Below, piece by piece: positions 1,619-23,206 of a stretch of DNA of 64,000 nt. Origin of the DNA: Pseudarthrobacter defluvii (lineage in GTDB: Bacteria > Actinomycetota > Actinomycetes > Actinomycetales > Micrococcaceae). Position numbers and translations under genes: made by a program. Every line of letters starts with the position of its first letter. Position 1 is the stretch's first letter. The stretch is from positions 3,844,001-3,908,000 of the forward strand of contig NZ_JAUSYG010000001.1 of the NCBI RefSeq assembly GCF_030816725.1. Reading direction: 5' to 3'. The notes below the pieces were generated by a model. The model did no database searches. It was not told the origin of the DNA and saw only the letters and a list, made by a program, of their open reading frames with translations.

Positions 1619-1678
1619 ATCGACTGCTCCGTATCTGCCGTTTTGGAGGCCGAAAACGGCAGTTACGGAGCAATCGAT
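1619..1678. terminator. 26-bp-arm near-perfect hairpin between convergent genes
   Basis: Arms at 1619-1644 and 1653-1678 match at 24 of 26 positions with an 8-base loop. Each arm carries CTGCCGTTTT next to the loop, so transcripts from either direction would end the stem near a U or A run. It lies between the LysR stop (1613) and the convergent spermidine-synthase-like gene, whose stop codon (1663-1665) and last five codons are inside the right arm. It probably acts as a bidirectional terminator. The arm is longer than a usual terminator, so a repetitive palindromic element is possible. Confidence 0.7.
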
Positions 1679-2607
1679 GGCAAGTCGTGGCGGACCGGGG
1701 TGCCGGCGGCGAATGCCCGGACCTGGGCGTCATCCCAGAGGTGCGCCGGGACCGCACCACCGAGGAGCCGGCGGCGCAGCTGCGGGTCGTCACCGAAGGG
1801 CACGTCGCTGCCGGCCATGACCATGTTCCCGTAGCGCCTGCCCTTGAGCATGGCGGGGTCGGCGATGATGGCGGTGTGCTTGAAGGCCGCCGCGATGGTG
1901 GCGGCGTCCTCCCTTGCATTCTTGAGGTCCGGGGCGTCGCCCGAGTTGGCCACATACAGGCCGCCGGGCGCCAGGACACGCTTGGCGTGGGCGGTGAACT
2001 CCGCAGTGGTGAGCGGCCGCGGGGTGTGCGCGCCTGCGAAGACATCACGAATGATGAAGTCACGGGTGTGTGCGGTGAGCGTCTCCGTCACGGCGCGGGC
2101 CTCCCCCACGCGGATCCGCAGCAAGGGCGCCTTGGGAAGGTCGAACCAGCCGCGCACGTACTCGGCCAGCTTCCCGTCCAGTTCCACCACCACCTGCCGT
2201 GCGTCCGGGTATGCGGCGGCAAAGTACCGCGCCATGGAGCAGGCGCCGCCGCCCAGGTGCAGCCCGCGCAGCTTGTGCTCCTGCAAGCCGCGGAGCTTCT
2301 GGCCGCGTCCATCAGGGGAACCAGTGGAGGACGACGGCGGCCAGCGGGACTCAATGAGCGCCGCCATCCACCGCATGTACTCGAAGTCCAGGAACAGCGG
2401 GTCGGCAAGATCGATGTGGGAGCTCATCACGCCGTTGATCTTCAGGAGCCACCCGGTGGAGTTGTCCTGGTCCGCGATCAGCTCGCAGTCGCCGGTGTCA
2501 ATGTAGTAGACGCCTTCCACGGGACCGCCCACCGCGGAACCATTCGCTACCTCCACCACGCCCGGCACGGGCCGGCTCCGGCCTCCTGACCTTCCGCGTT
2601 TGCCCAT
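1663..2607 (-). CDS. spermidine synthase-like methyltransferase-fold protein
   Basis: 314 residues resembling the soluble spermidine-synthase-like proteins of actinobacteria. A nucleotide-binding Rossmann core begins at about residue 113 (LRGLHLGGGACSMARYFAAA), followed by an acidic strand end (VVVELDGKL) and IIRDVFAGAHTP. The real SpeE gatekeeper and Asp pair cannot be confirmed, and actinobacterial homologues often are not polyamine synthases, so the reaction is left open. The start ATG at 2607 lacks a good ribosome site. It lies 47 bp downstream of the leftward hldE gene and could be the last gene of that operon. Its 3' end overlaps the right arm of the long hairpin. Confidence 0.75.
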   Translation of the reverse strand: MGKRGRSGGRSRPVPGVVEVANGSAVGGPVEGVYYIDTGDCELIADQDNSTGWLLKINGVMSSHIDLADPLFLDFEYMRWMAALIESRWPPSSSTGSPDGRGQKLRGLQEHKLRGLHLGGGACSMARYFAAAYPDARQVVVELDGKLAEYVRGWFDLPKAPLLRIRVGEARAVTETLTAHTRDFIIRDVFAGAHTPRPLTTAEFTAHAKRVLAPGGLYVANSGDAPDLKNAREDAATIAAAFKHTAIIADPAMLKGRRYGNMVMAGSDVPFGDDPQLRRRLLGGAVPAHLWDDAQVRAFAAGTPVRHDLPSIAP

Positions 2608-2654: not shown

Positions 2655-4190
2655 CTAGTTGACCGGGCTCGGTGCCCCCTTGCCGTCCCGGATCCTGTTC
2701 ACCACGGCCGTGGTGGACCGCTCGGCCACGTAGTCCAGGATCGCAATGCGGCCGCCGTACTCCTCCACGGCCGGCGTCTCCTCCAACATTTCGGGCGTGT
2801 AGTCCCCGCCCTTGGCATACACCTCTGGCCGGAGCCGCCGGATCAGCGGTGTGGCCGTGGGCGTATCAAACACCGTCACGTAGTCGACGCAGCTAAGCGC
2901 GGCCACCACCGCCGCGCGGTCCGCCATGTTGTTGATGGGCCGGCCGGCACCCTTCAGCCGGCGCACGGAGTCATCGCTGTTCAGAGCCACCACCAGGACG
3001 TCACCCAACTGCTTTGCCTGGTTCAGGTACCGGGTGTGGCCGCTGTGCAGCACATCGAAACAGCCGTTGGTCAGCACGATCCGCTGGCCCTGGGCCCGGT
3101 GCAGCTCCATCTGCCGTTCCAGCTCGTCCGCGCTGAGCGCCGTGTCGGCAAAGGCCTCCAGGTAGCGGCTTAGCTGCGCCGTGCTGCATACGGACGTCCC
3201 GGGCTGATGGACCACCACGTCGGCCGCCGACTGGGCCAGGTCCAGGCTGGCGGTCAGCGGCAGCCCGGCCGCCCGCGCCAGCGTCAGGGCCGCAACAAAC
3301 GTGTCGCCCGCCCCTGATGCCTGTTTCTCCGCTGCGGGCCGTGCCCACGTCCGGTGCCGCACGCCGTCGGGCGTCAACAGCACGGTGCCGTCCCGGTCCA
3401 GGGTGACCACCACCGCCCGCGCGCCGGTGCCCTCCAGCAGGGCCGCGGACTCCGCGCCCACCACTTCAACCCGTTCCTGGCCTTCCGGCAGCTTCCGGTC
3501 CAGCAACCGCGCGGCTTCCAGCGCGTTCGGGGTGACCAGGTCGGGTTTCAGGGCGGCCCATAGCCGGGGGTCGTGCGCGTCAACAACCACCAGCGGGCGG
3601 TTGGTTCCGGCAGCCCCGCCGCCCACGGCATCGGCCAGTGCCGTGCGGACGGGGTCAGCCACCACACCGGTTCCGTAGTCACACACCAGGACGGCATCCT
3701 GGCGTTCGACGGCGGCGCGGACCGAGGCGGCGAGCGCAGCGAGGGCGTCTGCGGGGACAGCCTTGGCTGAGTCGTCGAGGCGCAGCATCACCTGCCCCCC
3801 GCTGCTGATCCGGATCTTGGTGGTGGTGACCATGTCCTGGTGCGTGTGCAGGTGCTGGACATCGATGCCTGCGGCGGCAAGCTGCCCACGGAGGTCCTCG
3901 CCCGCGTCGTCGGCGCCGATGATCCCCGCAACGGAAACCTTGGCTCCGAGCGCGGCCAGGTTCATGGCGGTGTTGGCCGCTCCGCCCGGAACGGATTCGC
4001 GGGATTGGATATCCACCACCGGCGCCGGGGCTTCCCGGCACAGACGCTCAATGCTGCCGCTCCACCAGCCATCGAGCATCACGTCACCGATCACCAGGAT
4101 TGACGGCTGTTCCGCGGCCAGCCGGCCCGGCAGCCAGTCGGACAGCGCCCGCTGGGTGGAGAGATCGACAGGTTCCGGGGACCCACTCAC
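2655..4190 (-). CDS. hldE: bifunctional heptose-7-phosphate kinase / heptose-1-phosphate adenylyltransferase (HldE), copy 1
   Basis: 511 residues, two domains as in bacterial HldE (RfaE). Residues about 30-330 form a PfkB-type sugar kinase (GDVMLDGWW, PGGAANTAMN, and the catalytic anion-hole motif SGAGDTFVAA). Residues about 365-511 form a nucleotidyltransferase (NGCFDVLHSGHTRYL with the HxGH motif, then LNSDDSVRRLKG). Known function: phosphorylates D-glycero-D-manno-heptose 7-phosphate at C1 and later adenylylates the 1-phosphate to ADP-heptose. Its start overlaps the stop of the upstream aldehyde dehydrogenase by 4 bp. A second, divergent hldE lies at 6483-7886 in the same operon, so one copy may have shifted in specificity. 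All key motifs are intact. Confidence 0.92.
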   Translation of the reverse strand: MSGSPEPVDLSTQRALSDWLPGRLAAEQPSILVIGDVMLDGWWSGSIERLCREAPAPVVDIQSRESVPGGAANTAMNLAALGAKVSVAGIIGADDAGEDLRGQLAAAGIDVQHLHTHQDMVTTTKIRISSGGQVMLRLDDSAKAVPADALAALAASVRAAVERQDAVLVCDYGTGVVADPVRTALADAVGGGAAGTNRPLVVVDAHDPRLWAALKPDLVTPNALEAARLLDRKLPEGQERVEVVGAESAALLEGTGARAVVVTLDRDGTVLLTPDGVRHRTWARPAAEKQASGAGDTFVAALTLARAAGLPLTASLDLAQSAADVVVHQPGTSVCSTAQLSRYLEAFADTALSADELERQMELHRAQGQRIVLTNGCFDVLHSGHTRYLNQAKQLGDVLVVALNSDDSVRRLKGAGRPINNMADRAAVVAALSCVDYVTVFDTPTATPLIRRLRPEVYAKGGDYTPEMLEETPAVEEYGGRIAILDYVAERSTTAVVNRIRDGKGAPSPVN

Positions 4191-5638
4191 GGCAGGTCCT
4201 GTTCATCGGGGCTGAAGCCCGGTCCGGAAGCCAAGGCCGCCGGAGGCGCTTCAATGTGCACCACCTTGACCTGGGTAAACTCGTCCAGCAGCTCGGGCCC
4301 GTAGCCGAACCCCGCACCGCTCTCGCCGCGGGGCTGCGCTGCACCTCCGGGGGCGCCGCCAAACACGGCATTGACCTTCACGGTTCCCACGGGCAGCGCG
4401 GCCACGGCCTGCTGGATGTGTCCGATGTTGCTGCTCAGGACGGTGGCGGCCAGCCCGTATTTGCCGCTGCAGGCCAGGCGCAGGCCGTCGTCGAATGTGT
4501 CCACCACCTGCACCGGGGCCACCGGGCCGAACGTTTCCTCGGTCACCACCTGCATTCCGTCGGTGCAACCGAGCAGGACGGTGGCGGGGTAGAACGAGCC
4601 CGGCCCATCCGGCACCGACCCGCCTTCAACCGCCCGGGCGCCCTGCGCCAGGGCGCCGGCAACATGTGCATGGACGGCATCGCGCATCCGCCGGTCCACC
4701 AGCGGCGCCACTGTGCCGTTGACGTTCCGGAGTGCTGCCTCGGCCTCCAAGGCATGGCAGAATTCTTCGGCGATATCGCGGTGGACATAGATCCGTTCCA
4801 CGGAGGTGCAGATCTGCCCGCTGTTGCTGAACGCGCCGATCGCGGCCTGCTCAGCCGCCCAGACGGGATCCACATCGCGGTCCACCAGCAGCGGGTCGTT
4901 GCCGCCGTTTTCCCTGATGACATGTGCGCCGGTGAGGGCTCCCGCCTGGGCTATCCGGGCACCGGATGCGCTGGAACCGACGTGGGCGATTACGTCCACC
5001 TCGGCCTGGGACAGGGCCGCCCCAACTTCTGCACCTCCGGAGAGGGTCAGGAAGACGCCCGCTGGGAAGGCCGGCGCCAGGACCTCGCCCAGCGCCTCCC
5101 CCAGGCGGGGGCAGCGTTCGCTGGGCTTGTGGATCACAGCGTTGCCGGTGACCAGTGCGGCGCCGATCAGTCCGCAGGCCACGGCTACGGGGTCGTTCCA
5201 CGGGGTCAGCAGGACCGCCACTCCGCGCGGTTCAGCGATGGTGTAGTCGGTGGCGAGCCGGCTGCCGCGGAGGCTGTGGCCGCGCTGGACCGGGCCCAGC
5301 TCGGCATATTGCTCCAGGGTGGAAACGCCGGCCGCAATGCCTGCCAGCGCCTCCGCTTCCGGCCGTCCCGTCTCGCTGGCGTTCAGTCCGGCGAGTTCCT
5401 GGGCGGCAGCCTCGAGCGCCTTGGCGGCGGCGCGGAGGGCGGTGCCACGTTCGGCGGGAGCGGTTGCTGCCCAGCCTGGCGCAGCCCGGCGGGCCACGTT
5501 CACGGCATCGTTTACTGCGTCCGGTCCCGCCGCGGGCACCGTCCAGAGCATCTCACCGGTTCGCGGGTCCTCGATGGTGATGCCGGCGCCCTCGACTGTT
5601 TCATTGCCTGCGGTTGTTTCGGTGGCTGTGGTGGGCAT
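4187..5638 (-). CDS. aldehyde dehydrogenase family protein
   Basis: 483 residues of the NAD(P)-dependent aldehyde dehydrogenase superfamily. Visible motifs are PWNDPVAV (cofactor/oxyanion Asn), IHKPSERCP (cofactor Lys), ENGGNDPLLV (general-base Glu position, in place of the usual ELGGK) and the catalytic cysteine in NSGQICTSVERIYV. The TEETFGPVAPV motif is also present. It would oxidise an aldehyde to a carboxylate in the cytoplasm. It sits between an SDR and hldE and overlaps hldE by 4 bp, so it probably acts on a sugar- or glycan-derived intermediate; the substrate is not deducible. An 83-bp gap separates it from the upstream SDR, with GGGAGG just before the ATG at 5638. Confidence 0.88.
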   Translation of the reverse strand: MPTTATETTAGNETVEGAGITIEDPRTGEMLWTVPAAGPDAVNDAVNVARRAAPGWAATAPAERGTALRAAAKALEAAAQELAGLNASETGRPEAEALAGIAAGVSTLEQYAELGPVQRGHSLRGSRLATDYTIAEPRGVAVLLTPWNDPVAVACGLIGAALVTGNAVIHKPSERCPRLGEALGEVLAPAFPAGVFLTLSGGAEVGAALSQAEVDVIAHVGSSASGARIAQAGALTGAHVIRENGGNDPLLVDRDVDPVWAAEQAAIGAFSNSGQICTSVERIYVHRDIAEEFCHALEAEAALRNVNGTVAPLVDRRMRDAVHAHVAGALAQGARAVEGGSVPDGPGSFYPATVLLGCTDGMQVVTEETFGPVAPVQVVDTFDDGLRLACSGKYGLAATVLSSNIGHIQQAVAALPVGTVKVNAVFGGAPGGAAQPRGESGAGFGYGPELLDEFTQVKVVHIEAPPAALASGPGFSPDEQDLP

Positions 5639-5721
5639 GGTGTTCCTCCCGCCTTTCGCTGCTGGTATGTCGGTGTTGGTGGTCCTGCCGTGCCGCCAAG
5701 GTGTGGTGGCCGGTCCCCGGC

Positions 5722-6438
5722 TTAGGGCCAGGAGCCTTCTTCTTCGTGGCAGATCAGCATTTCGCGGACCTCGCAGCCGGTGGGCTGGTTGAGGGCGAAG
5801 AGAATGGCCTGCGCGGTGTTGGCGGGGTCGTTGAGCCGGGAATCGTCCTGCGGCTTGTACTGTTCGGTGCGGTCATCGAAGAACCGGGTCTTCATGCCGC
5901 CGGGGATCATGGTGGTGACCCCGATCTGGCCGCCGGTTTCCGCGGCCAGTGCGTGGCTGAAGCCCACCACGCCAAACTTGGAAGCACAGTAGGCGGTGGC
6001 GTCGGCCACGGCGCGCTTGCCCAGGGTGGAGGCCACGGTCACCACGCGGCCGTGGGTTTCCTTCAGGTACGGCAGGGCCGCACGCACTGTGGAGACGGTG
6101 CCCATCAGGTTGACCCCGATGACCTTTTCCCACTCGGTGGCTTCGACGTCGGCGAGCTTGCCGCAACGATCGATCCCGGCCGCGGTAACCACGGCGTCCA
6201 GGCCCCCAAGCGTCTCTGCGGCTTCACGTACCGCCTGTTCCACGGCGGCGCGGTCCGCCACATCCACTTCGAACGCCTTCACGCCGGAGACGCTGCTGAT
6301 GTCGCGGTCCAGGACCACCGGGGTGCCTCCTGAACGGAGGACGGCTTCGACGACGGCGGCCCCCAGTCCGGAGGCACCTCCCGTGACCAGGACGCGGCCG
6401 GGCGTGGTGGAGGCAGTTGCAGTTGGTTCTGCAGTCAT
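5722..6438 (-). CDS. short-chain dehydrogenase/reductase (classical SDR)
   Basis: 238 residues with a classical SDR fold: TGGASGLG cofactor motif at about residue 19, a DVAD acidic turn, an NAAG-like TAAGID, the catalytic serine in VASTLGK and YCASK active-site Tyr/Lys. Classical SDRs of this size oxidise or reduce a hydroxyl/keto group. This is not the extended-SDR type of HldD, so it should not be read as the ADP-heptose epimerase. AAAGGAAC lies just upstream of the ATG at 6438. It is 44 bp downstream of hldE copy 2 in the same operon and precedes the aldehyde dehydrogenase, suggesting two successive redox steps. Confidence 0.88.
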   Translation of the reverse strand: MTAEPTATASTTPGRVLVTGGASGLGAAVVEAVLRSGGTPVVLDRDISSVSGVKAFEVDVADRAAVEQAVREAAETLGGLDAVVTAAGIDRCGKLADVEATEWEKVIGVNLMGTVSTVRAALPYLKETHGRVVTVASTLGKRAVADATAYCASKFGVVGFSHALAAETGGQIGVTTMIPGGMKTRFFDDRTEQYKPQDDSRLNDPANTAQAILFALNQPTGCEVREMLICHEEEGSWP

Positions 6439-6482
6439 GGTGTTCCTTTCAATGGGGAAAACAAGTCGATCAGTAAGCAGGT

Positions 6483-7886
6483 TCAGCTGACCTTGGCGAG
6501 GGCATCCGCCAGGCCGGTAGTGGAGCGGGCGGGATGGAAGGGGACAGTGAGGCAGCGTCCGCCCCAGCTTTCCACCAGGTCCGCCTCGGGCAGGCGGGCG
6601 CCCTTGTAGTCGCCGCCCTTCACCCAGATGTCGGGGCGGAGCCGGTCCAGCGCCGCTTCGGGAGTGTCCTCGTCAAAGACCATCACCGCGTCCACGCACT
6701 CCATGGCCAGGAGCAGTTCCGCCCTGTCGTGCTGGCCGATGATGGGCCGCTCCGGACCCTTGAGCCGCCGGACCGAGTCATCGGAGTTCAGGCACACGAT
6801 GAGGCAATCGCCCAGTTCCCGGGCGGCGCTGAGGGAACGGATGTGGCCCGCGTGGATCAGGTCGAAACAGCCACCGGTGGCCACTACCCTTCCGCCGTTT
6901 TCACGCACCGAGCGGGCCAGCAACAGCGGTTCGGTGGTCCGCCGTGCCGGCACAGGCGCAGGGCGTGGAGTTCCAGCCGCGGCATCGGTCTCGCCGGTGT
7001 CCGGCAGCGCTGAAACTCCGCCCGCCGCCAGGAAGTCGGCGGCGTCATGGACTGCCAGGCCGGCTGCTTCCGGCAGGTCGCGGCCGGCCAGGAGGTGCAC
7101 CGCAAGGCTGGCGGCCAGGCGGTCGCCGGCACCGCAGGGGTCGCCGGCCTCCACCCTTGGCGCGGGAACGGCGTGGGGGGTCTCCCCCTGCCGCAGCAGG
7201 ACGGCCCCCTCCTCGCCCTTGGTCACCAGGACGGCTTGGCTGCGCCAGCGCTCCAGCAGGACCTCCCCGACGGCCGCGGCGGGGTCCGCGGACGTGGGAA
7301 CGCTTCCGCCGCCGGACTGCGCTGCCCGGGTGGCTTCGGAGATGTTGGGGGTCACGACCGCGACGCCGGGGACAGGGTCAGGGCCGGCGGGGTGCGGATC
7401 CCAGATGATGGGCACGTCGGCGGCAAGCCGGGCGAGCAGGTTTCGCAGCTGAGGGTTGGCTGCCAGTCCCCTGCCGTAGTCGGCAACGATCACCACGCCG
7501 GCTTTCTCCACGGCACGGAGCATGGCCGGGGTGACGTCGGGGACGGGGGTCTTTTCGCAGCCCTGGTCGAAGCGGACCACCGGATGGGAACCTGCACGGA
7601 CGCGGGTCTTGACCGGCGAGGGGTAGCCGCTGGTCCCCGCCACGAGCCGCACCCCGGCGAGGTGCCCACGCAGCTGGTTGCCGGCGTCGTCATCCCCCAG
7701 GACCGTCACCAAAGTGACCGGCCAGCCGTCCTGCGCCAGCATCCGCGATACCAGGCCCGCGCCGCCTGCGCGGCGGCGGACACCCGAAACGTCCACCACG
7801 GGAACGGGAGCGTCAGGGCTGAGCCGTGTTGCCTCACCGGAAAGATCGACGTCGAGCATCACGTCGCCCACTACGACGATCCTCAT
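6483..7886 (-). CDS. hldE: bifunctional HldE-type heptose kinase / adenylyltransferase, copy 2
   Basis: 467 residues, again a PfkB kinase (GDVMLDVDL at the N-terminus, DPCGAGDRLAAS active-site motif) joined to a cytidylyltransferase-like domain (TGGCFDLIHAGHIRSL, LNSDDSVRRLKG, KGGDYKGARLPE). The kinase half differs from copy 1: the usual GGAANVA stretch reads RRAGGAGLVSRM, and it is about 40 residues shorter. Its start overlaps the end of gmhA by 4 bp, so it is tightly coupled to the heptose pathway gene and is the better candidate for the housekeeping HldE. Copy 1 sits three genes downstream after an SDR and an aldehyde dehydrogenase. Whether the two copies split kinase and transferase roles cannot be told. 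Confidence 0.9.
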   Translation of the reverse strand: MRIVVVGDVMLDVDLSGEATRLSPDAPVPVVDVSGVRRRAGGAGLVSRMLAQDGWPVTLVTVLGDDDAGNQLRGHLAGVRLVAGTSGYPSPVKTRVRAGSHPVVRFDQGCEKTPVPDVTPAMLRAVEKAGVVIVADYGRGLAANPQLRNLLARLAADVPIIWDPHPAGPDPVPGVAVVTPNISEATRAAQSGGGSVPTSADPAAAVGEVLLERWRSQAVLVTKGEEGAVLLRQGETPHAVPAPRVEAGDPCGAGDRLAASLAVHLLAGRDLPEAAGLAVHDAADFLAAGGVSALPDTGETDAAAGTPRPAPVPARRTTEPLLLARSVRENGGRVVATGGCFDLIHAGHIRSLSAARELGDCLIVCLNSDDSVRRLKGPERPIIGQHDRAELLLAMECVDAVMVFDEDTPEAALDRLRPDIWVKGGDYKGARLPEADLVESWGGRCLTVPFHPARSTTGLADALAKVS

Positions 7887-8605
7887 GGCCGGCGTCCTTG
7901 CACCGTGGCGGCCATGGACGGGGTGTGCCGGGCCACCTCAAGGTCGAAGGCGCGGCATACCGCATGCAGCGCAATCAGGTGGCCTTCCTGCGCGTTGGCG
8001 TTCAGGGCGTCGATCATGACCGCCTCGTCGCAGGCCTCCGACAGTGGATTGGGGCCGGAGCCGGTGAGGGCCCAGGTGGTCACGTTGAGGCGGGAGGCCG
8101 CTTCCGCAGCACGCAGCAGGTTGGGGCTCTTGCCGCTGGTGGACAGCAGCATCAGCACGTCGCCGGAGCGGCCATGCGCGCGCACCTGCCGGGCAAAGAC
8201 GTCGTCAAACCCATAGTCGTTGGCGATCGCCGTGACGGCGGACGACTCCGCGTGCAGTGAGATTGCGGAGAAGGGTACCCGCTCCGTGTCGAACCGGCCC
8301 ACCAGTTCGGCGGTCAGGTGCTGGGCTTCCGCGGCGGAACCGCCGTTTCCTGCCGCCAGCAGCCGCTGGCCGCGGAGCAGGCGCACGGCCAGCTCCACTC
8401 CCCAGGCGGCGAGCCGGCCGGACTGGCTGCGCAGGGATTCCAAGGCCGGGACCACGTTGTCCAGGTGGGCGCGGACGGCGTCGGCGCTGGCGGGGTCGAC
8501 GAACGTGGCGCCGGGGAGCACTGCAGGCAGTGCCGGGGGCGTGATCAGGGTGCGCAGGTCCGCTTCACGCAGGTTTGATTCGCGCAGGGACGATTCGGCA
8601 GTCAC
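7883..8605 (-). CDS. gmhA: SIS-domain sedoheptulose-7-phosphate isomerase (GmhA-like)
   Basis: 240 residues with one SIS phosphosugar-isomerase domain. The GmhA signature GNGGSAAEAQH and a second loop LSTSGKSPN are clear. GmhA converts sedoheptulose 7-phosphate to D-glycero-D-manno-heptose 7-phosphate, the first committed ADP-heptose step. It is about 50 residues longer than E. coli GmhA because of an N-terminal extension rich in LRES/LREAD repeats. It overlaps the upstream glycosyltransferase and the downstream hldE by 4 bp each, which ties all three together. Assignment is strong because gmhB and hldE are in the same operon. Confidence 0.9.
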   Translation of the reverse strand: MTAESSLRESNLREADLRTLITPPALPAVLPGATFVDPASADAVRAHLDNVVPALESLRSQSGRLAAWGVELAVRLLRGQRLLAAGNGGSAAEAQHLTAELVGRFDTERVPFSAISLHAESSAVTAIANDYGFDDVFARQVRAHGRSGDVLMLLSTSGKSPNLLRAAEAASRLNVTTWALTGSGPNPLSEACDEAVMIDALNANAQEGHLIALHAVCRAFDLEVARHTPSMAATVQGRRP

Positions 8606-9879
8606 AGTGCGGCTCCTTCCATCGGTATGATCCCGGCCTGTGCGCCCGCGGGGGCGCTTGTTTTCACACTGGCCACGGCGAGCTGGTAGGCCTTTTCCGT
8701 TTCCGCGGCCACTCGGTCCCAGGAGTACCTGGTGCGGGCGCGCCGTTCTCCCGCCTGCCCGAGTTGTGCCCTGAGGCTGGGGTTTTCCAGCAGCAGTGAC
8801 AGTGCCGACGCAATGGCTTCGGGGTCCCGGGGCGGCACGTGCAGCCCAGTGGCGTGGTCCACCACGGTGTCCCGGAGCCCTCCCACGGCTGCGGCCACCA
8901 CGGGCACTCCGCAGGCCATGGCCTCAAGCGGCACGATGCCGAAGGGCTCGTACCAGGGTGCGCACACCACGGCGTCAGCGCTGCGGAAGATGCCGGGCAT
9001 TTCGGCCCGCGACACCTGGCCCTGCAGCGTCACCTGTTCGGACACGCCGAGGTCGGCGGCGAGGTCCAGCAGGCGGCGGATCTCAGGATCGGCGTGCATC
9101 AGGTTCGAGTCGCCGCCGCCGCCCACGATCAGGAGTTCGACGTCGTCGAAGCCCGCGGCCTTGAGGTACGGGAGGGCGCGAATCACAAGGTCCACGCCTT
9201 TCCGCGGAACCAGCCGCCCCACCGACAGGATCCGGTAGCGGCGCTTTCGTGCAGCAGCCGGCCCCTCCGGCGAGAAGAAGCCCAGGTCCACGCCGCAGGG
9301 CGCAATGGAGATCTTGCCAGTGGCGATGCCCATGGCCTTGAGCTCGAAAACCTCATCCGAGCAGGTGGCAATGATCCGGTCCGCTGAGCGCCCCACACCG
9401 GGTTCGAGCCAGCGGCGCGCCTCCGGGCTGGTGTCCTCAGCGCCCTGGTGCCTCCGTTTGACGGTTCCCAGCGCGTGGAATGTTTGCAGCATCGGCACCC
9501 GGTATCCGGTGTCCGGCCGGCGGGCTGCGTCGAGGGCAGCCAGACCGGACATCCAGAAGTGGCCGTGCACCACGTCCGGTGGCCGCTGACCCCAGTCATT
9601 GGCCACGCCGTCGGCGAGTTGGCCCATGTAGGGCAGCAGTTCGTCCTTGGGTACGTGCCGGGCGGGACCCGCATCCACGTGGACCACCTCAAGGCGGCGT
9701 CCCACCCGGACCCTTTCGGGGAGCTCCGTTGCGTCCCGGCGGGTGTAGACGGTGACATGGTGGCCCCGCTTGGCAAGGGCTTCTGACAGCGCGGCAACAT
9801 GCACGTTCTGCCCGCCGGCATCCACCCCGCCCAGCGCCGCCAACGGACTGGCGTGCTCGGAAATCATGGCGATCTTCAT
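8602..9879 (-). CDS. GT-B glycosyltransferase, family 4 type
   Basis: 425 residues. The N-terminal half has a glycine-rich GGVDAGGQNVHVAAL loop and a VVHGHFWMSG motif; the C-terminal half has ILSVGRLVPRKGVDLVI and the retaining GT4 EX7E motif (EPFGIVPLE). The closest recognisable relatives are sucrose-phosphate-synthase/MshA-like GT4 enzymes. It would transfer a sugar from a nucleotide donor at the cytoplasmic face. It shares 4-bp overlaps with gmhA downstream and another glycosyltransferase upstream. The heptose setting suggests it builds the same glycan; donor and acceptor are unknown. Confidence 0.9.
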   Translation of the reverse strand: MKIAMISEHASPLAALGGVDAGGQNVHVAALSEALAKRGHHVTVYTRRDATELPERVRVGRRLEVVHVDAGPARHVPKDELLPYMGQLADGVANDWGQRPPDVVHGHFWMSGLAALDAARRPDTGYRVPMLQTFHALGTVKRRHQGAEDTSPEARRWLEPGVGRSADRIIATCSDEVFELKAMGIATGKISIAPCGVDLGFFSPEGPAAARKRRYRILSVGRLVPRKGVDLVIRALPYLKAAGFDDVELLIVGGGGDSNLMHADPEIRRLLDLAADLGVSEQVTLQGQVSRAEMPGIFRSADAVVCAPWYEPFGIVPLEAMACGVPVVAAAVGGLRDTVVDHATGLHVPPRDPEAIASALSLLLENPSLRAQLGQAGERRARTRYSWDRVAAETEKAYQLAVASVKTSAPAGAQAGIIPMEGAAL

Positions 9880-10910
9880 GGGGTCTTCCTCTCCCGTGCC
9901 GGAACGAGGATCCGCTCGTCCGGACGTTCGTTGTCGGTGTGCCTGGGCCGGGTCCGCAGGTCCGCCAGCAGCTCATCCCAGCGGTCCTGGAACTTGCCCA
10001 GGCCGTAACGCTCCAGCGCCGCCTCCCGGGCGGCGACCCCCCGCCGTCGGGCCTCATCCGGATTGGCGACCAGCTTGGCCGCACAGCGGAGCAGTTCGTC
10101 AACGTCCGCCGAAACAATGCCGGCCTCCTGCGGCACGGCCCGGGGGGCCTCAGTGGCTGCGAGCACCACCACCGGCATGCCCAAGTGCATGGCTTCCAGA
10201 AGGGACAGCCCAAGCGATGTCCAGCGCATCGGGTGCACGTAGACCCGGCAGCGGGCGAGTTCGCGGTGCAGTTCCAGGGTTTTCAGATCGCCCCTGGCGC
10301 TTAGCTGCGCCGCGTCGATGCCGGTGGCTGCCGCCAGGCCGTCCGTTTTCATGCCGAACACCTGCAGCGGCGCCACGGAAGCGAAGGCGGGCAGCAGGTC
10401 GGTTCCCGTGACCCTGCCGCGCCGGACAGGCTCGTTGATCACGACGCCCAGTTCGGGCAGCTCCCCCGTGTAGAGCCGGCCGGGGTCGGGGATGCCGTGC
10501 TCGATCACGATCGTGGGAGCGGAGCCGTTGTCCCAGGCCAGCCGGTTGAAGTGGGTTACGTGCACAACGGGGATGCTGTTTTGGTCAGCGAGCGGATGGC
10601 TGATGTTCGGGAAGTTGCCCTTGGGCGTGTTGTGCTCCACGAACACTGCAGGCAGGTCCACGCCGGGCATCCGGCCCAAGGTCCGGGCCACTTCGTCGAT
10701 CTCTTCGGGGCGCTGGAGTACGACGGCGTCCACGGCGTCGGCATCGAGCGTCGCCAGATCCACCTCCCGCACGGATTCCGGCCAGTCCCTGTCGGCGCGG
10801 CCGAGTCCCCAGGCTCCACCTTCGGGCAGGACGGGAAGCAGGTACTCATGCCGGCCGCGGACAAACGCGTCCGTCCAGGAACCGTGGACATGCCAGAGCA
10901 GGATTCTCAT
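9876..10910 (-). CDS. glycosyltransferase (GT-B, family 1/4-like)
   Basis: 344 residues. The N-terminal domain begins MRILLWHVHGSWTDAFV and holds VFVEHNTPKGN. The C-terminal domain carries VYVHPMRWTSLGLSLLEAM, corresponding to the nucleotide-sugar-binding region of GT-B enzymes. The EX7E motif is degenerate (the first Glu is replaced), so catalysis may differ from standard GT4 enzymes. The start ATG at 10910 overlaps the stop of the GT9 gene by 4 bp, and its own stop overlaps the next GT4 by 4 bp. It is inferred to be part of the same glycan assembly line. Confidence 0.85.
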   Translation of the reverse strand: MRILLWHVHGSWTDAFVRGRHEYLLPVLPEGGAWGLGRADRDWPESVREVDLATLDADAVDAVVLQRPEEIDEVARTLGRMPGVDLPAVFVEHNTPKGNFPNISHPLADQNSIPVVHVTHFNRLAWDNGSAPTIVIEHGIPDPGRLYTGELPELGVVINEPVRRGRVTGTDLLPAFASVAPLQVFGMKTDGLAAATGIDAAQLSARGDLKTLELHRELARCRVYVHPMRWTSLGLSLLEAMHLGMPVVVLAATEAPRAVPQEAGIVSADVDELLRCAAKLVANPDEARRRGVAAREAALERYGLGKFQDRWDELLADLRTRPRHTDNERPDERILVPARERKTP

Positions 10911-11995
10911 CTGTTGCGGGCCTTTCTACGGGTACTCACGTGGGTGCTGAAGGAGCTCACTCCGCTGATCAGGCGGTCCACGGCCCCCACCACTTCTTCC
11001 GGCGAGACCGAGTCGAGGCAGGGATGGCCGGGGACCGGGCAGACCCGGGCGCGGGACATGCGGCAGGGCGCGTTCTGGTCCCCCAGCAATTCCAGGGGCA
11101 CACCGTAGGGCGCCCAGCGGATCGCCGGAACCACGGGGGAAAACAGGCAGGCCACCGGGGTGCCCACCGCTGCAGCCAGATGGGCCGGGCCGGTGTTGCC
11201 GCTGACCACGGCATCAGCGCCTGCCATGACGCCTGCCATGGTTGAAAGATCGGTGCGCCCGCCCAGGTCCAGGGCCGAGGGTCCAGCCACCGTGGCGGTC
11301 AGCGACTTTTCGTCGGGTCCGCCGGTCACCACCACCCGGTACCCGGCACCTTGGAGGAGTTCGACGGCGGCCGCGTGGTGCAACGGGGGCCATGCCCTGG
11401 CCGGGACGGCGGCTCCCGGGTGGACCACGACGTATGGCTCGTCACCTACCAGGTCCGACACATCGGGGACGGAGTTGACGTGCAGTTTCCCGTCGTCGCC
11501 CGGCGGGAGCCGGAAACCTGCCGCTTCGGCAATGCCCAGCGCCCGTTCCGCCTCTGGCTGGTCTTCGGGAAAGTCCTCGCCGGGCTTGAGCCGCACGTCC
11601 AGCAGGGAGCCTGCATAGTCGGTCGAGGCCCCTGTGATGCGCTCCACGCCGGCCAGCCGCAGCAAAAGCGCCAGCGGCAGCGGCGACTGGTGGAAGGACG
11701 TAAGGATGACGGCTTCGGTGATCCGGGAATTGCGGACGTACTCGATCAGCCTGTCAGCGTGCGGCCCCGTCATCCTGGGTGCCGGGTTCATGATCCAGGG
11801 GCTGTCCCAGCTGTAGACCTCCGCTGCCCCCGGGAGCATGGCGGCCGCAGCTTCACCCTGCCGGCCGCACAGCATCACCACATGGTTGGTGCTGCCCCCA
11901 TACTGGGCCCGCCCGTTTGCCACTGCGCGGACGGCAGGACCGGCCAGCAGGACATCGCCCATGCTGTCCAGCCGGGCCACCAGGACGCGCCCCAT
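10907..11995 (-). CDS. glycosyltransferase family 9 (heptosyltransferase-like)
   Basis: 362 residues of the GT9 family, whose known members (WaaC, WaaF, WaaQ) transfer heptose from ADP-heptose. Visible are the N-terminal VLVARLDSMGDVLLAGPAVR, VVVHPGAAVPARAWP at the domain boundary, and SGNTGPAHLAAAVGTP near the donor site. The TGPAH motif is the ADP-heptose-contacting loop in known enzymes. Finding it directly after gmhB and upstream of gmhA/hldE makes a heptose donor likely. The acceptor cannot be lipid A in this organism; a cell-wall glycan, glycolipid or secondary metabolite is possible. The start is fixed by a TGATG overlap with the gmhB stop. Confidence 0.9.
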   Translation of the reverse strand: MGRVLVARLDSMGDVLLAGPAVRAVANGRAQYGGSTNHVVMLCGRQGEAAAAMLPGAAEVYSWDSPWIMNPAPRMTGPHADRLIEYVRNSRITEAVILTSFHQSPLPLALLLRLAGVERITGASTDYAGSLLDVRLKPGEDFPEDQPEAERALGIAEAAGFRLPPGDDGKLHVNSVPDVSDLVGDEPYVVVHPGAAVPARAWPPLHHAAAVELLQGAGYRVVVTGGPDEKSLTATVAGPSALDLGGRTDLSTMAGVMAGADAVVSGNTGPAHLAAAVGTPVACLFSPVVPAIRWAPYGVPLELLGDQNAPCRMSRARVCPVPGHPCLDSVSPEEVVGAVDRLISGVSSFSTHVSTRRKARNR

Positions 11996-12531
11996 CAGGC
12001 CGTCCCCTGCAGCAGACCGACGGCGGACGCAAGATCAGAGGCGACGAGCCGCGCGGCAGCCACCTCTTCTGCGCGCGTCACGGGGGTGGGAACCAGGACT
12101 CCCGTGGCTCCGGCCGCTTCGGCGGCCCCCACGTCCGCCCCTATGTCCCCGATCAGGGCTGCCTGGGATTCGGTGATCCCCAGTTTGCGGCAGGCACTGT
12201 GCACCATGCCGGGAGCAGGTTTGCGGCATTCGCAGCCGTCCTGCTCGCCGTGCGGACAAACCTCCCACACATCGAATGGTCCCAGCAGTTCTTCCACCCG
12301 TGCATTGACCTTTGCCACGTCTTCGGCCGTAATCAGGCCGCGGGCAATGCCCGACTGGTTGCTGATCACGCCGGTGGCGATGCCGTCCGCCCGCAGGCTG
12401 TCCAACACCGCCTTGGCACCGTCGATGGGCTGTACTTTGCCGGGGTCCCCGTTGTAGGGCACGTCGACCACCAGGGTCCCGTCCCGGTCGAACAGGACAG
12501 CCCGGAGCTTGGAGGATTCAGAGCTTTCCAT
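11995..12531 (-). CDS. gmhB: HAD-family heptose 1,7-bisphosphate phosphatase (GmhB-like)
   Basis: 178 residues with HAD motif I (LFDRDGTL), motif II region GVISNQSGIARG and the GmhB/HisB-type zinc-binding cysteine cluster (CPHGEQDGCECRKPAPGM). Length and zinc loop fit GmhB, which removes the C7 phosphate between the two HldE steps. The ATG at 12531 lies 12 bases after an AGGAGGG ribosome site. A TTG two codons upstream has better spacing and may be the true start. An upstream in-frame ATG at 12624 would add an unlikely Cys/Arg-rich tail. The stop shares one base with the GT9 start (TGATG). It is the first gene of the heptose operon. Confidence 0.88.
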   Translation of the reverse strand: MESSESSKLRAVLFDRDGTLVVDVPYNGDPGKVQPIDGAKAVLDSLRADGIATGVISNQSGIARGLITAEDVAKVNARVEELLGPFDVWEVCPHGEQDGCECRKPAPGMVHSACRKLGITESQAALIGDIGADVGAAEAAGATGVLVPTPVTRAEEVAAARLVASDLASAVGLLQGTA

Positions 12532-12741
12532 AACCAATCTGTTCCCTCCTGCTGCTGCTCCTAAACAGGACCGCAGGCATTTTCGGCTGCAGAAGCCGGT
12601 TCTCAGGCGGGGTTGAACAGGCAAGATAGGAATTGGTTGCCGCTAGGGCTTCTTCCAGTTTTCCAGGCGGACCGTTCCGGTGCCTCCGGAGCCGCGTTCC
12701 GGCGTCGTCAGAAGCGGTCCAGCCGTGTGCGGGGACGGCAG
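12532..12741 (-). other. 210-bp gap between sigma-like gene and heptose operon
   Basis: No gene is evident. It lies between two genes read in the same direction. No hairpin with a U run was seen, so read-through from the sigma-like gene into gmhB is possible. A clear promoter was not recognised; TATCTT on the minus strand at about 12630 has no matching -35. Confidence 0.4.
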
Positions 12742-13702
12742 CTACCTGGTCCTCGCGCCGCCAAGGCGACGGCCTGCTACCGTGCGGGCAATGCTCTGGT
12801 GCCTGGCGCTCCTGGACTGGCGGAACGACGCCACCGGGCTGCCCATACGGTCAGCCTCCCCCACGCTGGATGCTGTTGCCTTGCCGGCCGCATCCTCGGG
12901 CCGTCCAAACTGGGCGCTCGCCTCCAGGCGCCGCTGCAGTTCCACCAGCACCTTTGCCAGGCGGCGCGATACCTGCATCTGCGACATCCCCAGGGCGCTT
13001 CCCCAGCTGCACCTGCGTTTCCTCGCAGAAGTAGCGGCGGTACAAAAGCTCGCGGTCGGAATCGTCCAGGTCCTGCATGGCGTCCCGCAGGCAGGCGAGT
13101 TCCTCAAGCCGCTCCAGTGGGGTTTCCGGGCAGGCCAGCACCTCGCCGATGGAAGGAGCGTCCGAGTTCGGGTTCACGGCGTCAAGGGAATCAGGGTGCA
13201 TGCTGCTCGACGCCGAAATTGCTTCCTGCACGTCGGCCGGATCAGTGTCCAGCTCACAGGCCAGTTCCGCCACACTGGGGCTCCGGCCCAACAACTGGGT
13301 CAATTCAGGCTCGGCCCTGAACAGCCGGGTCCGCAGGTCCTGAATATGGCGCGGCGGGCGGACAACCCATGTCCGGTCCCGAAGGTACCTCTTGAGTTCG
13401 CCGGTGATGGTGGGAGCGGCGTAGGCGGGGAAGCTCTCACCCTTGGCCTGGTCAAATCCCCGCGCTGCTTTCACGAGGCCCAGATACGCCACCTGGTTCA
13501 AGTCCGCCCGCTCCCTTCCCCGCGCTTCAAAACGGGCAGCAAGGGCTTCGGCGAGGTCCAGGTACCGGAGGACCAGGTCGTTTTCGAACGCCTCCCGCAA
13601 CCGTCCGGAGGTGGCAGGAGGAGCTTGTTGTTGCGGCGGTTCCGGCTGTTGTTGGTGGACAGGCGCAGCATCCGCGACAAGTGCGGCAAAGGATTCGGGC
13701 AT
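12742..13702 (-). pseudogene. SigB/SigF-type RNA polymerase sigma factor, frameshifted near region 4
   Basis: From the ATG at 13702 the frame encodes sigma region 2 (ADLNQVAYLGLVKAARGFD, then TITGELKRYLRDRTW), region 3 (LGRSPSVAELACELD) and the start of region 4 (DRELLYRRYFCEETQVQLG). It then runs into nonsense. The missing DNA-binding helix (LGMSQMQVSRRLAKVLVELQ) continues in another frame down to a TAG at 12742. Removing one base from the GGG at 12993-12995 joins the two as QLGKRLGMSQMQVSRRL, a normal region 4.2. Sigma factors of this group control general stress. It is therefore either a recently inactivated stress sigma gene or an intact gene with a one-base sequencing error. The approximately 60-residue tail after region 4 is unfamiliar. 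Confidence 0.8.
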
Positions 13703-13850
13703 GAGTGTTGGTTTCCCTCGGTCTGGTTCCGAAAGCCTGCGGCAAGACTTAGAAGCAGCAAATCATAAGGTTGCTTATAAAACAATCCTTCTCCGCTGTA
13801 GGCTCGGCTTGTAGGCAAAGATCGGACCAACCCGCCAAGGAGTGTTTGCC

Positions 13851-14891
13851 ATGCGCATCGCCATTACGGGAGCCAGCGGAAACGCCGGAACAGCACTGCT
13901 GCGCAAGCTGCAGGACCAGTTGGCACGGAAGCCCGGCAGCCTTGAGCTTGTGGGTATCAGCCGCAGGCTGCCCGACACTTCCGTGGCGCCCTATGTGGGT
14001 GTGCAGTGGCACACCTTGGACGTTGGCCTGGAACAGGACGGGCCGCGGCTGGAGAAGGCCCTCACAGGCGTCGATGCGGTAGTCCACCTGGCGTGGCAGA
14101 TCCAGCCGAACCGTAATCTGGACCTCCTGCACCGCACGAATGTCACCGGCACGAAGAATGTGCTCCAAGCTGCCGCGGGGGTGGGCGTAAAGCAGGTTGT
14201 TTGCGCTTCTTCCGTAGGCGCCTACACCAAAGCGGACAAGGACCGGCGCAGGGATGAGACCTGGCCTGCAACCGGAATGGCCGGCTCCCACTACAGCCGG
14301 CACAAAGCAGAGCAGGAGAAGCTGCTTGATGAGTTCGCTGCCGCCCAGCCAGGCATTGCGGTGGCGAGGCTGCGGCCGGGGCTCATTTTCCAGGGCCACG
14401 CCGGAAGTGAGATCGGCCGGTACTTCCTGGGTCATGCCTTTCCGCGGCTCGTCCCCCGCAAACCGTGGATTCCGCTGCTGCCGGTTCCAGACAACCTCAT
14501 CTTCCAGGCAGTCCACGCAGACGACGTTGCAGACGCGTATTGGCGGGTGGTGGACCAGCGCGCCAGCGGCGCCTTCAACATCGCCGCCGAGCCTGTACTG
14601 AATCCCCAGGAGCTGGCCCGCATTCTTGGCGCAAAAAGAATCCTGCCCATACCCATGCGGCTGCTCCACGCCGTAGTGGACCTGACCTGGAGGGCAAGAA
14701 TCCAACCGACCGACTCCGGGTGGGTTGAGATGGCTGCCGGCGCGCCCATCATGGACACCGGCCGCGCCCGGCGGATCCTGGGATGGGAGCCAACCGTGTC
14801 CTCCGTGGACGCCGTCAAGGAACTCCTCGCAGGCATGGGAACGGGGGAAGGAGTCAACCCTTCCCCCGTCCTCAGGCCGCGCCGGCCCTAG
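13851..14891 (+). CDS. NAD-dependent epimerase/dehydratase family protein (extended SDR)
   Basis: 346 residues. An N-terminal TGASGNAG Rossmann motif follows MRIAI; VVHLAWQI and CASSVGAY match the SDR substrate loop; the active-site YSRHK provides Tyr-x3-Lys. Extended SDRs epimerise, dehydrate or reduce nucleotide sugars and similar compounds; the substrate is not evident. The ATG at 13851 is preferred over a GTG at 13842 because AAGGAG lies at 13837-13842, eight bases upstream. It is divergent from the sigma gene and convergent with the coiled-coil gene at 15555-14926. It might supply the missing epimerase of the heptose pathway, but nothing in the sequence proves this. Confidence 0.85.
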   Translation: MRIAITGASGNAGTALLRKLQDQLARKPGSLELVGISRRLPDTSVAPYVGVQWHTLDVGLEQDGPRLEKALTGVDAVVHLAWQIQPNRNLDLLHRTNVTGTKNVLQAAAGVGVKQVVCASSVGAYTKADKDRRRDETWPATGMAGSHYSRHKAEQEKLLDEFAAAQPGIAVARLRPGLIFQGHAGSEIGRYFLGHAFPRLVPRKPWIPLLPVPDNLIFQAVHADDVADAYWRVVDQRASGAFNIAAEPVLNPQELARILGAKRILPIPMRLLHAVVDLTWRARIQPTDSGWVEMAAGAPIMDTGRARRILGWEPTVSSVDAVKELLAGMGTGEGVNPSPVLRPRRP

Positions 14892-14925
14892 AAGCCGGCG
14901 ACTGATTCTCCGCAGGCCGCCCGGT

Positions 14926-15555
14926 TCAGATGCGCGGGTTTCCCTCGCCCCGTTCACCGTGCCCGGTGGAGCTGTCACCGCTGTCAGGTTGGCGCCTCCG
15001 CCCTGACCCGGCCTCAGGATCTACATCGGCGCCGGCGGCGGAAGCCTCGTGGTGCGCGCCATGGCCAATCCCGGCGCCAGGGTGCCCGGCGTCGGAATAT
15101 CCGGCCTCGGAGTGCCCGGTGTCCGCACGGCCGGCATCCAGGCGCCCACCGTCCGCGTACCCTGCGTCGTGCCCGGAACGGGCGTCATGGCGCCGCTCCC
15201 CGTTCCGTCCGGCGTCGGGGTCGATCTCATCCGCCTTGCGTGCATGGCTGGCAACGTCGCCGCGCAGGGATTCTGCTTCCTGGTTGCGCTGTTCCGCTTC
15301 CTTTTGCAGCCGTGCTGCATCAACCTTGGCCTGCTCGGCATCTGCGCGCGCCCGGATGGCTTTGGCTTCCCGTTCGCGGGCGTCGATTTCCATGTTCTCG
15401 GCTTCACGCCGGATCTCGGCGGCCTTTTCCCGGTGTTCCTGGTCGCGCTTCTGCTGCATCGCTTTCCGGCGCCTTCCCCCGGCCAGAAGCAGCACCACGA
15501 TCAGCACCACTACGACAACGGCAACTACCACCCACACCCATGGAGCTGTATCCAT
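14926..15555 (-). CDS. membrane-anchored coiled-coil protein with 5-residue repeats
   Basis: 209 residues, family not recognised. Residues 6-25 form one valine-rich membrane helix; residues 30-110 are highly charged and heptad-like (EKAAEIRREAENMEIDARER), predicting a long coiled coil. Residues 128-162 are seven consecutive pentads of pattern xxDAG, after which the chain is Gly/His/Asp-rich to the end. This layout suggests a single-pass protein with a cytoplasmic coiled coil, acting as a structural or stress-related scaffold. It sits between an SDR and the LEA-like/holin module, which supports an envelope role. Reading on this strand is supported by the GC-rich third positions and the membrane helix. 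Confidence 0.65.
   Translation of the reverse strand: MDTAPWVWVVVAVVVVVLIVVLLLAGGRRRKAMQQKRDQEHREKAAEIRREAENMEIDAREREAKAIRARADAEQAKVDAARLQKEAEQRNQEAESLRGDVASHARKADEIDPDAGRNGERRHDARSGHDAGYADGGRLDAGRADTGHSEAGYSDAGHPGAGIGHGAHHEASAAGADVDPEAGSGRRRQPDSGDSSTGHGERGEGNPRI
15070..15174 (-). repeat. 7 x 15-bp degenerate in-frame repeat (pentads xxDAG)
   Basis: An acidic residue recurs every fifth position at residues 130, 135, 140, 145, 150 and 155 of the coiled-coil protein. The DNA shows a 15-bp period with a conserved GCCCGGCGTC-like core on the plus strand. Copies differ at several bases, so the array is old or diversifying. Confidence 0.75.
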
Positions 15556-15743: not shown

Positions 15744-16728
15744 ATGACAGAGAACCAATGGTCCGAGGATCCCGCTTACACGGCTCCTCCGGCCAGTACA
15801 GGAATTCCGGGCGAGCGGGAGCCCGCCACCTTCCCATCCACCGCCGCTCCCCTCGCCGGTGACAGCCAGTCCGGCTATGCCCAGGCCGGTGACTCCTCTG
15901 GTTCATCACGCAAGGATGCGGCCAAGGAAGAGGCCGCGGACGTAGCCCGCACTGCGAAAGGATCGGCGCAGAATGTGACCGAGACTGCCAAGAGCGAGGC
16001 CGCGAATGTGGCGCATGAGGCGAAGGCCAACGCGCAGGACCTGCTGCACCAGGCAAAGTCCGGCCTTACCAGCCAGGCAGGCACCCAGCAGCAGAAGGCC
16101 GCGGAAGGCATCCGCAACATCTCCACCCAGCTGCACAGCATGGCCAGCGCCCCGGACCAGCAGGGCATGGCCGGCGACTTGGTCCGCCAGGCGGCAGAAC
16201 GCACTTCCTCGATGGCCACCTGGCTGGAAAACCGGGAGCCGGGTGACCTCCTGAACGAGGTCCAGCGGTTCGCCCGCAACCGGCCCGGAACATTCCTCCT
16301 CCTCGCCGCAGGCGCCGGCGTCCTCGCAGGACGCCTCACCCGCGGCCTCACCGCAGGCGCACCCGAAACATCCACTGCCGGCACCGGTGCAGCGGGCGTG
16401 TCCGGCCAGTACTCCGGCGCCGCCTACGGCGACCAGTACAACCAGTCGTACCCCGTTGCGGGCGGGACGGTTCCGCCCCCGCCGGTCCAGCTGCCCCGCC
16501 CCGGCCACCACAACGGCCGGCTACGACGGCGGCGCACCGGGCAGCAGCTATCCGGAGGCAGTAGGTCCGGCCAGCGGCCTGGACAGCCCTGAGCTCGTGG
16601 AAGAGCCCTGGTCAGGAAACCATCTCTCGGACGACCCGCTCCGTGACCGCGCCCTCGCCGACGATCCCATGGCAAACGATCCCCTCACCCAGGACCGCAC
16701 CCGGGGCGGCCAGACGGGTGGTCTGTGA
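15744..16728 (+). CDS. LEA-like helical repeat protein with membrane segment, frameshifted near its end
   Basis: AGAGAGCGAAG precedes the ATG at 15744. The product has an acidic disordered N-terminus, then Ala/Lys/Glu-rich amphipathic repeats at about residues 57-115 (DAAKEEAADVARTAKG, SEAANVAHEAKANAQD). These resemble late-embryogenesis-abundant or apolipoprotein-like helices. One hydrophobic helix follows (FLLLAAGAGVLAGRL, about residue 193). The first frame stops at 16592 in Arg-rich nonsense. Another frame continues smoothly (TTTAGYDGGAPGSSYPEAVG to the end) and stops at 16728, where TGATG overlaps the next start. Deleting one C from the run at 16499-16502 joins them. Probable role: desiccation/envelope stress, with the three genes that follow. 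Confidence 0.7.
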
Positions 16729-17830: not shown

Positions 17831-17868
17831 TCCGGCCGGTCAGAGAACCGCAAAGGCAACAGCCCTGT

Positions 17869-17907
17869 CCAACAGGCCGGCACCGCTCCCGCGGTCCGGC
17901 CTGTTGG
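17869..17907 (+). terminator. hairpin terminator after the DUF3618 gene
   Basis: Arms CCAACAGGCCGG (17869-17880) and CCGGCCTGTTGG (17896-17907) are perfectly complementary over 12 bp with a 15-base loop. Only a short pyrimidine tail follows (CTTCGCCCC). It probably ends the LEA/holin/DUF3618 transcript before the YihY gene. Confidence 0.65.
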
Positions 17908-17934
17908 CTTCGCCCCCTGATTGAGAGGACCCCC

Positions 17935-23127: not shown

Positions 23128-23206
23128 GAACACAGGAGTAGGTGCCGCGTGCAAGTACGTCCTCCATCGAAGATGTCCGGTGGGGCACCGGACGCATCTC
23201 CACAGC

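Follow-up and report, generated by a model that had tools for sequence, protein, structure and literature searches.

In Streptomyces coelicolor the cwg operon comprises twelve genes (SCO6179-SCO6190) and lies beside a 'putative deacetylase' gene (SCO6178); its expression is induced by vancomycin, depends partly on sigmaE, and is predicted to lead to a cell wall glycan (PMC6767563). Hong et al. gave the operon class its name in 2002 (cited in PMC6767563 and PMC13011467), and the available parts of the literature on the operon give no product for it. Here we analyze a nine-gene operon of this type in a 64,000-nucleotide stretch of DNA (the window; positions 3,844,001 to 3,908,000 of contig NZ_JAUSYG010000001.1) from Pseudarthrobacter defluvii, whose 4.58 Mb genome is one contig; among the 120 homologues listed, nearly all that bear an organism name come from Arthrobacter or Pseudarthrobacter. 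On balance we think it likely that this locus is the Micrococcales version of an actinobacterial cwg-type heptose-glycan locus and that it builds heptose into an envelope glycan.

Two other described systems bear on the operon. In the Gram-negative adenosine diphosphate (ADP)-heptose pathway (GmhA, HldE, GmhB, HldD and WaaC/WaaF) the reactions are those that would be expected here, and catalytic residues are common to both. Actinobacterial nucleoside diphosphate (NDP)-heptose synthetases and the spread of such enzymes between kingdoms have also been published (Tang 2024, via the commentary PMC11461863), as has the cwg operon class, and the locus is to that extent less novel than a first-pass annotation of the window had implied. 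HldE-type enzymes and the STT-motif Arg of those synthetases (below) are present in the window as well. By the title of a 2022 paper, Tang et al. reportedly dealt with a tridomain NDP-heptose synthetase of actinobacteria, whereas in the window GmhA is a protein of its own, encoded with two bifunctional HldE proteins in a glycosyltransferase operon. Judged from literature listings, no paper looked to be directly on heptose in actinobacterial walls; a paper on Frankia salt tolerance (PMC5563000) mentions heptose.

The Operon and Its Likeness to the cwg Operon

Open reading frame (ORF) and domain checks confirmed all nine gene calls at the coordinates given in Table 1, all on the minus strand and in the order gmhB, GT9, GT4a, GT4b, gmhA, hldE1, SDR, aldehyde dehydrogenase (ALDH) and hldE2. 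The gmhB and GT9 genes overlap by 1 bp and the next four junctions (GT9/GT4a, GT4a/GT4b, GT4b/gmhA and gmhA/hldE1) by 4 bp each; gaps of 44 bp and 83 bp follow between hldE1 and SDR and between SDR and ALDH, and ALDH and hldE2 again overlap by 4 bp. Pfam domain models are clear for the operon genes, and the operon and gene calls of the first-pass annotation are borne out.

We compared the operon with cwg through the homologous locus of S. coelicoflavus (L102), not through the S. coelicolor sequence. In L102 a row of twelve genes, preceded by a divergent polysaccharide deacetylase gene, has the order epimerase/dehydratase, carbamoyltransferase, GT2, gmhB, GT9, GT4a, GT4b, gmhA, hldE1, GT9, GT2, GT2, and the eight cwg product names compared fit their places in this row if, as we infer, the 'putative dehydratase' SCO6182 is a HisB-like GmhB. 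The published cwg promoter (PMC6767563) has a match with 3 mismatches in L102, located 163 bp ahead of the first ORF (0.00 such matches expected); it has no exact match in 153 loci, and in L084, the only other Streptomyces locus searched with mismatches, it has none with 3 mismatches. The window operon shares the gmhB-GT9-GT4-GT4-gmhA-hldE order of this homologue, and its GT9 shares 55-57% identity with the GT9 that S. coelicoflavus has in the cwgE position; a cwgJ homologue is present elsewhere in the genome. It differs from cwg in having no carbamoyltransferase, upstream GT2 or NDP-sugar dehydratase gene, in adding SDR, ALDH and a second HldE, in having two GT9 genes elsewhere, and in having a SigB/SigF/SigG-type sigma factor gene next door (also present in L037, 66%) and no recognizable sigmaE promoter, since a regular-expression search upstream of the window gmhB found no sigmaE-type promoter. 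The single match there to a SigF-like promoter overlaps the ribosome-binding region and was set aside as unconvincing. Among the products that the first-pass annotation had entertained (wall glycan, glycolipid or small molecule), a wall glycan is favored by this homology to the cwg operon and the shared gene order.

Conservation across the Actinomycetota

In a search of 296 genomes of the phylum with HldE1, 45 genomes had a match (E ≤ 1e-10), and these fall in 34 of the 192 genera. We read 29 loci besides that of the window as being of the HldE1 type, and flanks were taken for 27 of these (one on a 4.8-kb contig, G184, and one with a split match, G013, were left out); eight loci with the other type of HldE were fetched with them. 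From a collection of named organisms the best 80 of at least 556 relatives were kept, 18 of which are loci of less than 15 kb, some of them truncated at contig ends. The two sets overlap: L049/L121 and L055/L105 have contigs of equal length and probably stand for one record each, so the total of 107 loci includes duplicates. The core genes gmhB-GT9-GT4a-GT4b-gmhA-hldE1 lie contiguously in 19 of the 27 sampled phylum loci and in 54 of the best 80 named relatives, which include Streptomyces, Kitasatospora, Micromonospora, Actinoplanes, Dactylosporangium, Nocardioides, Parafrankia and Curtobacterium as well as metagenome-assembled genomes (MAGs) of Thermoleophilia and Acidimicrobiia. Because this gene order is conserved across the phylum the operon is not a chance assemblage.

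Some loci depart from this pattern. In L066 and L069, from distant Actinomycetota, the order is gmhA-gmhB-hldE2-like-GT9-GT4a-GT4b-SDR, with an ALDH in addition in L066. MAGs with the labels Chloroflexi and Candidatus Dormibacteraeota (L074, L111) also contain the cluster, by transfer or through a binning error, and the L111 stretch as fetched contains no gmhB. Loci from Streptomyces sp. NBC_00249 and Paractinoplanes rishiriensis (L049, L121 and L093) have hldE1 and gmhA, and in L093 also gmhB, without the cluster glycosyltransferases, and are perhaps natural-product clusters.

The Micrococcales Variant and Its Unlinked GT9 Genes

What is new here is a Micrococcales variant of the locus that contains SDR-ALDH together with a second HldE and has three GT9 genes; it is complete in 8/8 related loci of this type. 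The arrangement hldE1-SDR-ALDH-hldE2 is found, besides the window, in L037 (same genus as the window), four Curtobacterium loci, Amnibacterium, Planctomonas and one Microbacteriaceae strain; the fetched stretches of these eight contain no carbamoyltransferase gene. HldE1 and HldE2 fall in separate clades of a tree for which 30 of 105 HldE1 sequences were drawn at random, its branching being taken without support values. HldE2 orthologues at ≥55% identity are present in 9 of 297 genomes of the order, a count that takes in the window's own genome and one in which the orthologue is divided over two matches; each of these nine genomes carries a second HldE match. Among the 89 loci of at least 15 kb (18 of the 107 are shorter and were not counted) an SDR gene lies directly 3' of hldE1 in 49, and an ALDH gene on either strand accompanies it in 22 of these 49 and in none of the 40 others.

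All eight variant loci (L131 included) have two further GT9 genes on the opposite strand: one is cwgJ-like and lies upstream of gmhB, and one of another type lies between SDR and ALDH. These reverse-strand matches are real genes, and an explanation of them as antisense noise was rejected. The window has neither: 319 bp separate gmhB from the sigma factor gene where L037 has the cwgJ-like GT9, and only 83 bp lie between SDR and ALDH. Both missing types are instead encoded side by side 1.85 Mb from the operon (Table 1). The cwgJ-like member of this pair (C1:1995555-1996523) shares 45% identity over 309 aa with the GT9 that S. coelicoflavus has in the cwgJ position, and 55-71% with its counterparts in the eight variant loci. 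Near the pair are genes for an LGFP-repeat subtilase, a PLD-like protein, an alcohol dehydrogenase and a formate/nitrite transporter. Thus the nine genes are as the first-pass annotation had claimed, but the system as a whole is split and is not confined to a single operon. The linked state of the GT9 genes would be the ancestral one.

The cwgJ-like GT9, the only one of the two types for which co-occurrence was counted, is present in 92 of the 95 genomes of the genus that match the HldE1 query and in 0 of the 55 that do not (thresholds of 1e-40 for GT9 and 1e-10 for HldE1; the 150 genomes are related and are not 150 independent trials). The three exceptions are G338, whose E = 8.6e-11 match is probably not HldE1, and two incomplete genomes, G350 (90% complete) and G413 (63%). 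In 44 of the 92 genomes the GT9 gene lies less than 10 kb from hldE1, in 23 it is far away on the same contig, and in 25 it is on a different contig, where assembly breaks are possible. That this gene is kept in step with hldE1 although it is unlinked points to a shared function.

Catalytic Residues, Heptose Isomer and Nucleotide

Residues were counted in orthologues extracted by script from the 107 loci (≥38% identity, ≥60% coverage, the window's own sequence counted), with E. coli K-12 proteins as the alignment reference. The GAGD Asp and both HxGH His residues of HldE1 are present in 106/106 sequences, GNGGSA and Glu100 of GmhA in 103/103, DxD and the four zinc ligands of GmhB in 92/92, and Asp14 and His272 of GT9 in 93/93 letters with one gap; hldE2 retains GGAAN and GAGDT. 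The gmhA product matches phosphoheptose isomerases in the PDB at E = 1e-37. The nucleotidyltransferase domain of hldE1 matches PDB 5x9q ('putative cytidylyltransferase'), which we take to be Burkholderia HldC, at E = 5.8e-38. On the HldE nucleotidyltransferase model TIGR02199 (cut-off 181.5 bits) hldE2 scores 192.2 and hldE1 is borderline, with 180.2 and 183.5 bits in two runs. GT4b was considered as the mycothiol enzyme MshA and rejected, as another protein of the genome scores 511.8 bits on TIGR03449 (cut-off 462.5) against 256 for GT4b.

In contrast to the Gram-negative pathway, the window's genome has no LpxC (none was found genome-wide, while 4 of 14 control genomes were positive) and so no sign of lipopolysaccharide (LPS), as the first-pass annotation had supposed, and no protein over the HldD cut-off, the best one genome-wide reaching 131.5 bits on TIGR02197 (cut-off 274.6). 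Because no HldD exceeds the cut-off the sugar should stay D-glycero, and the isomer should be the D,D- form. Three departures from the Gram-negative enzymes run through the whole clade, at the Asn of the kinase GGAAN motif and at the GT9 positions that correspond to WaaC K192 and D261. The K192 position is Arg in 94/94 sequences. In D,D-heptosyltransferases K192 is replaced by Arg (or Asn), and D261 is found in all compared enzymes except WahF (PMC3559599), so the Arg fits a D,D-heptose donor, in agreement with the lack of an HldD over the cut-off.

Position 5 of the STT motif, which is Cys in E. coli HldE, is Arg in both HldE proteins of the window and in 92/106 HldE1 sequences; positions 1 and/or 4 of the window's motifs deviate from the published (F/L)XXGXSTT consensus. 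This Arg (STTR5) lets NDP-heptose synthetases make CDP- and UDP-heptose (PMC11461863, a commentary on Tang et al. 2024), and the donor here may perhaps be CDP- or UDP-heptose besides ADP-heptose. Of the ADP-heptose product that had been proposed, activation and transfer of heptose remain likely, but the donor need not be ADP-heptose alone.

What the Locus May Make

In the pathway that we propose, GmhA would convert sedoheptulose 7-phosphate to heptose 7-phosphate, from which the HldE kinase, GmhB and the HldE nucleotidyltransferase would then produce an NDP-D,D-heptose; the operon GT9 and GT4 enzymes, with the two GT9 proteins encoded at 1.995 Mb, would assemble the heptose into an envelope oligosaccharide. 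Judged from these genes, heptose activation by the operon enzymes is very probable, and, if heptose is made, an envelope glycan is its probable destination. SDR and ALDH might take an alcohol on the sugar or glycan via the aldehyde to the acid, a step that we suggest only tentatively. That these envelopes contain D-glycero-D-manno-heptose is a prediction that can be tested directly in soil bacteria, since it rests on phylum-wide conservation, named residues and a co-occurring distant GT9. If it is true, heptose of the GmhA/HldE pathway is no mark of LPS, and sensing of NDP-heptose by ALPK1 becomes a question for LPS-free actinobacteria too.

A number of observations weigh against this interpretation, which is built from sequence comparison. 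Scores lie below the curated cut-offs for GmhA (TIGR00441, 142.3 against 209.45 bits; NF010546, 156 against 276), GmhB (NF006506, 109.3 against 178) and the HldE kinase (TIGR02198, cut-off 345; hldE1 159.2, hldE2 227), and the operon proteins likewise fall short of the NCBIfam LPS heptosyltransferase cut-offs. The whole-HldE model NF008454 (cut-off 521) gave 298.7 for hldE1 and 365.1 for hldE2. Because these cut-offs are missed, the enzyme names used here mean 'works like' and not 'is'. Residue by residue, the GGAAN Asn of HldE1 is replaced by Leu in 105/106 and by Met in 1/106 sequences, GmhA His209 is present in 94/103 and is Gln in 8 (with a gap in 1), the STT-motif Arg is found in only 2 of 9 HldE2 sequences (the window and L037; L079, which has no such motif, was left out), and the WaaC D261 position of GT9 is Asn (N267 in the window) in 93/93 letters. 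In HepI the change D261A lowers activity about 2000-fold (PMC5713226); given the kinase and GT9 changes throughout the clade, the substrate or donor may therefore differ, and the GT9 Asn argues against plain transfer from the textbook donor. The GT9 signature D261(T/S)(A/G)XXH266 is accordingly incomplete, although the PF01075 cut-off is exceeded and the D13 and H266 equivalents are present. Within the genus the locus belongs to the accessory gene content, being present in 88 of 141 good genomes. The genomes in the conservation and co-occurrence counts are related and hence not independent, and lineage confounds the SDR-ALDH association because 25 of the 32 named SDR-free loci are from Streptomyces. 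No carbamoyltransferase (PF02543) was found genome-wide, unlike the Streptomyces form, and there is no flippase, polymerase or ligase among the scanned neighbor genes, to which the search for these was confined.

A more specific form of the heptose-glycan reading is that the actinobacterial clade carries D,D-heptose on CDP or UDP, transfers it with the Asn-type GT9 and, in species with SDR and ALDH, oxidizes it to hepturonic acid, so that a charged heptose wall glycan would occur phylum-wide; we regard this as possible but doubtful. It is somewhat less probable that the enzymes have been repurposed, with HldE1 acting on another sugar phosphate, the cwgE-type GT9 on another activated sugar, and hldE2, where present, the only true heptose enzyme. 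This would explain the clade-wide replacement of the GGAAN Asn by Leu and of D261 in GT9 by Asn, as well as the low kinase-domain scores of both HldE proteins, but HldE1 adjoins gmhA and gmhB across the phylum even where hldE2 is absent, and its nucleotidyltransferase domain lies near or just over the heptose-specific cut-off and matches 5x9q (above).

We consider it improbable that the operon makes a small secreted molecule resembling the heptose nucleoside antibiotic septacidin. Septacidins and spicamycins do use an ADP-heptose intermediate (PMC10948575), and the few loci that hold only gmhA-hldE1 or gmhB-gmhA-hldE1 (L049, L121 and L093) would suit such a product; the operon genes, however, have no look of nucleoside-antibiotic assembly in their Pfam matches, what is conserved beyond the activation and redox genes is a set of glycosyltransferases in fixed order throughout the phylum, and in Streptomyces the homologous operon is one of cell-envelope stress. 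Least probable is a product other than a glycan, whether a protein with heptose attached or NDP-heptose as a free signal, for although E. coli glycosylates proteins with heptose and NDP-heptoses are immune agonists (PMC11461863), the autotransporter O-heptosyltransferase model TIGR04414 gave 18.8 bits against a cut-off of 200 and the several co-conserved transferases point to a chain.

Coordinates and Neighboring Features

Table 1. Features of the operon and its surroundings in window coordinates, except where genome positions are given.
Feature	Coordinates	Strand or location	Evidence and remarks
gmhB-type HAD phosphatase	11995..12531	-	ATG at 12531; DxD; zinc motif C-P-H...C-x-C-R-K-P; Pfam HAD matches
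GT9 glycosyltransferase, cwgE type	10907..11995	-	D14, R200, N267, H272; PF01075 81.9 bits (cut-off 22)
GT4-type glycosyltransferase a	9876..10910	-	PF13692/PF00534, only C-terminal domain recognized; cluster orthologues
GT4 glycosyltransferase b, MshA-like paralogue	8602..9879	-	TIGR03449 256 bits, under cut-off 462.5
gmhA-type putative sedoheptulose-7-phosphate isomerase	7883..8605	-	PF13580; GNGGSA, Glu100, Gln206, His209
hldE1, putative bifunctional heptose kinase/nucleotidyltransferase, actinobacterial clade	6483..7886	-	GGAGL, GAGDR, FHPARSTT
Classical SDR oxidoreductase	5722..6438	-	PF00106; YCASK
ALDH	4187..5638	-	PF00171; Glu243, Cys277 intact
hldE2, second HldE, canonical kinase motifs	2655..4190	-	GGAAN, GAGDT, YVAERSTT
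Spermidine-synthase-like protein, downstream, membership doubtful	1663..2607	-	NF037959; kept in L037 at 78%
SigB/SigF/SigG-type sigma factor, upstream, possible regulator	12851..13702	-	TIGR02980 179.8 bits (cut-off 234.35)
Intergenic, likely promoter upstream of gmhB	12532..12850	-	Divergent cwgJ-like GT9 in relatives; comparison with L037
83-bp SDR-ALDH gap	5639..5721		Opposite-strand GT9 there in all 8 related loci; locus comparison
GT9 pair, 4-bp overlap	genome 1995552-1997773 (L072:11553-13774)	1.85 Mb from operon	Both missing types

Upstream of the operon the sigma factor gene and a divergent NAD-dependent epimerase gene occupy 12851-14891; among 115 fetched loci such a sigma gene lies near the heptose cluster in 11 and such an epimerase gene in 9. 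An ORF at 13749-14978 on the minus strand is probably not a gene, as it has no Pfam match and the epimerase is coded on the other strand. Further away, minus-strand genes at 19902-23905 encode a GT2, a PIG-L deacetylase/methyltransferase fusion, a weakly acyl-CoA-dehydrogenase-like protein and an O-methyltransferase; the GT2 and PIG-L/methyltransferase genes (19902-22072) were excluded from the system, as relatives of them are found in 2 of 115 loci (L041 and L127). The AT skew is 0.32 at positions 16001-18000, above the rest of the window, where the next highest value is 0.19.

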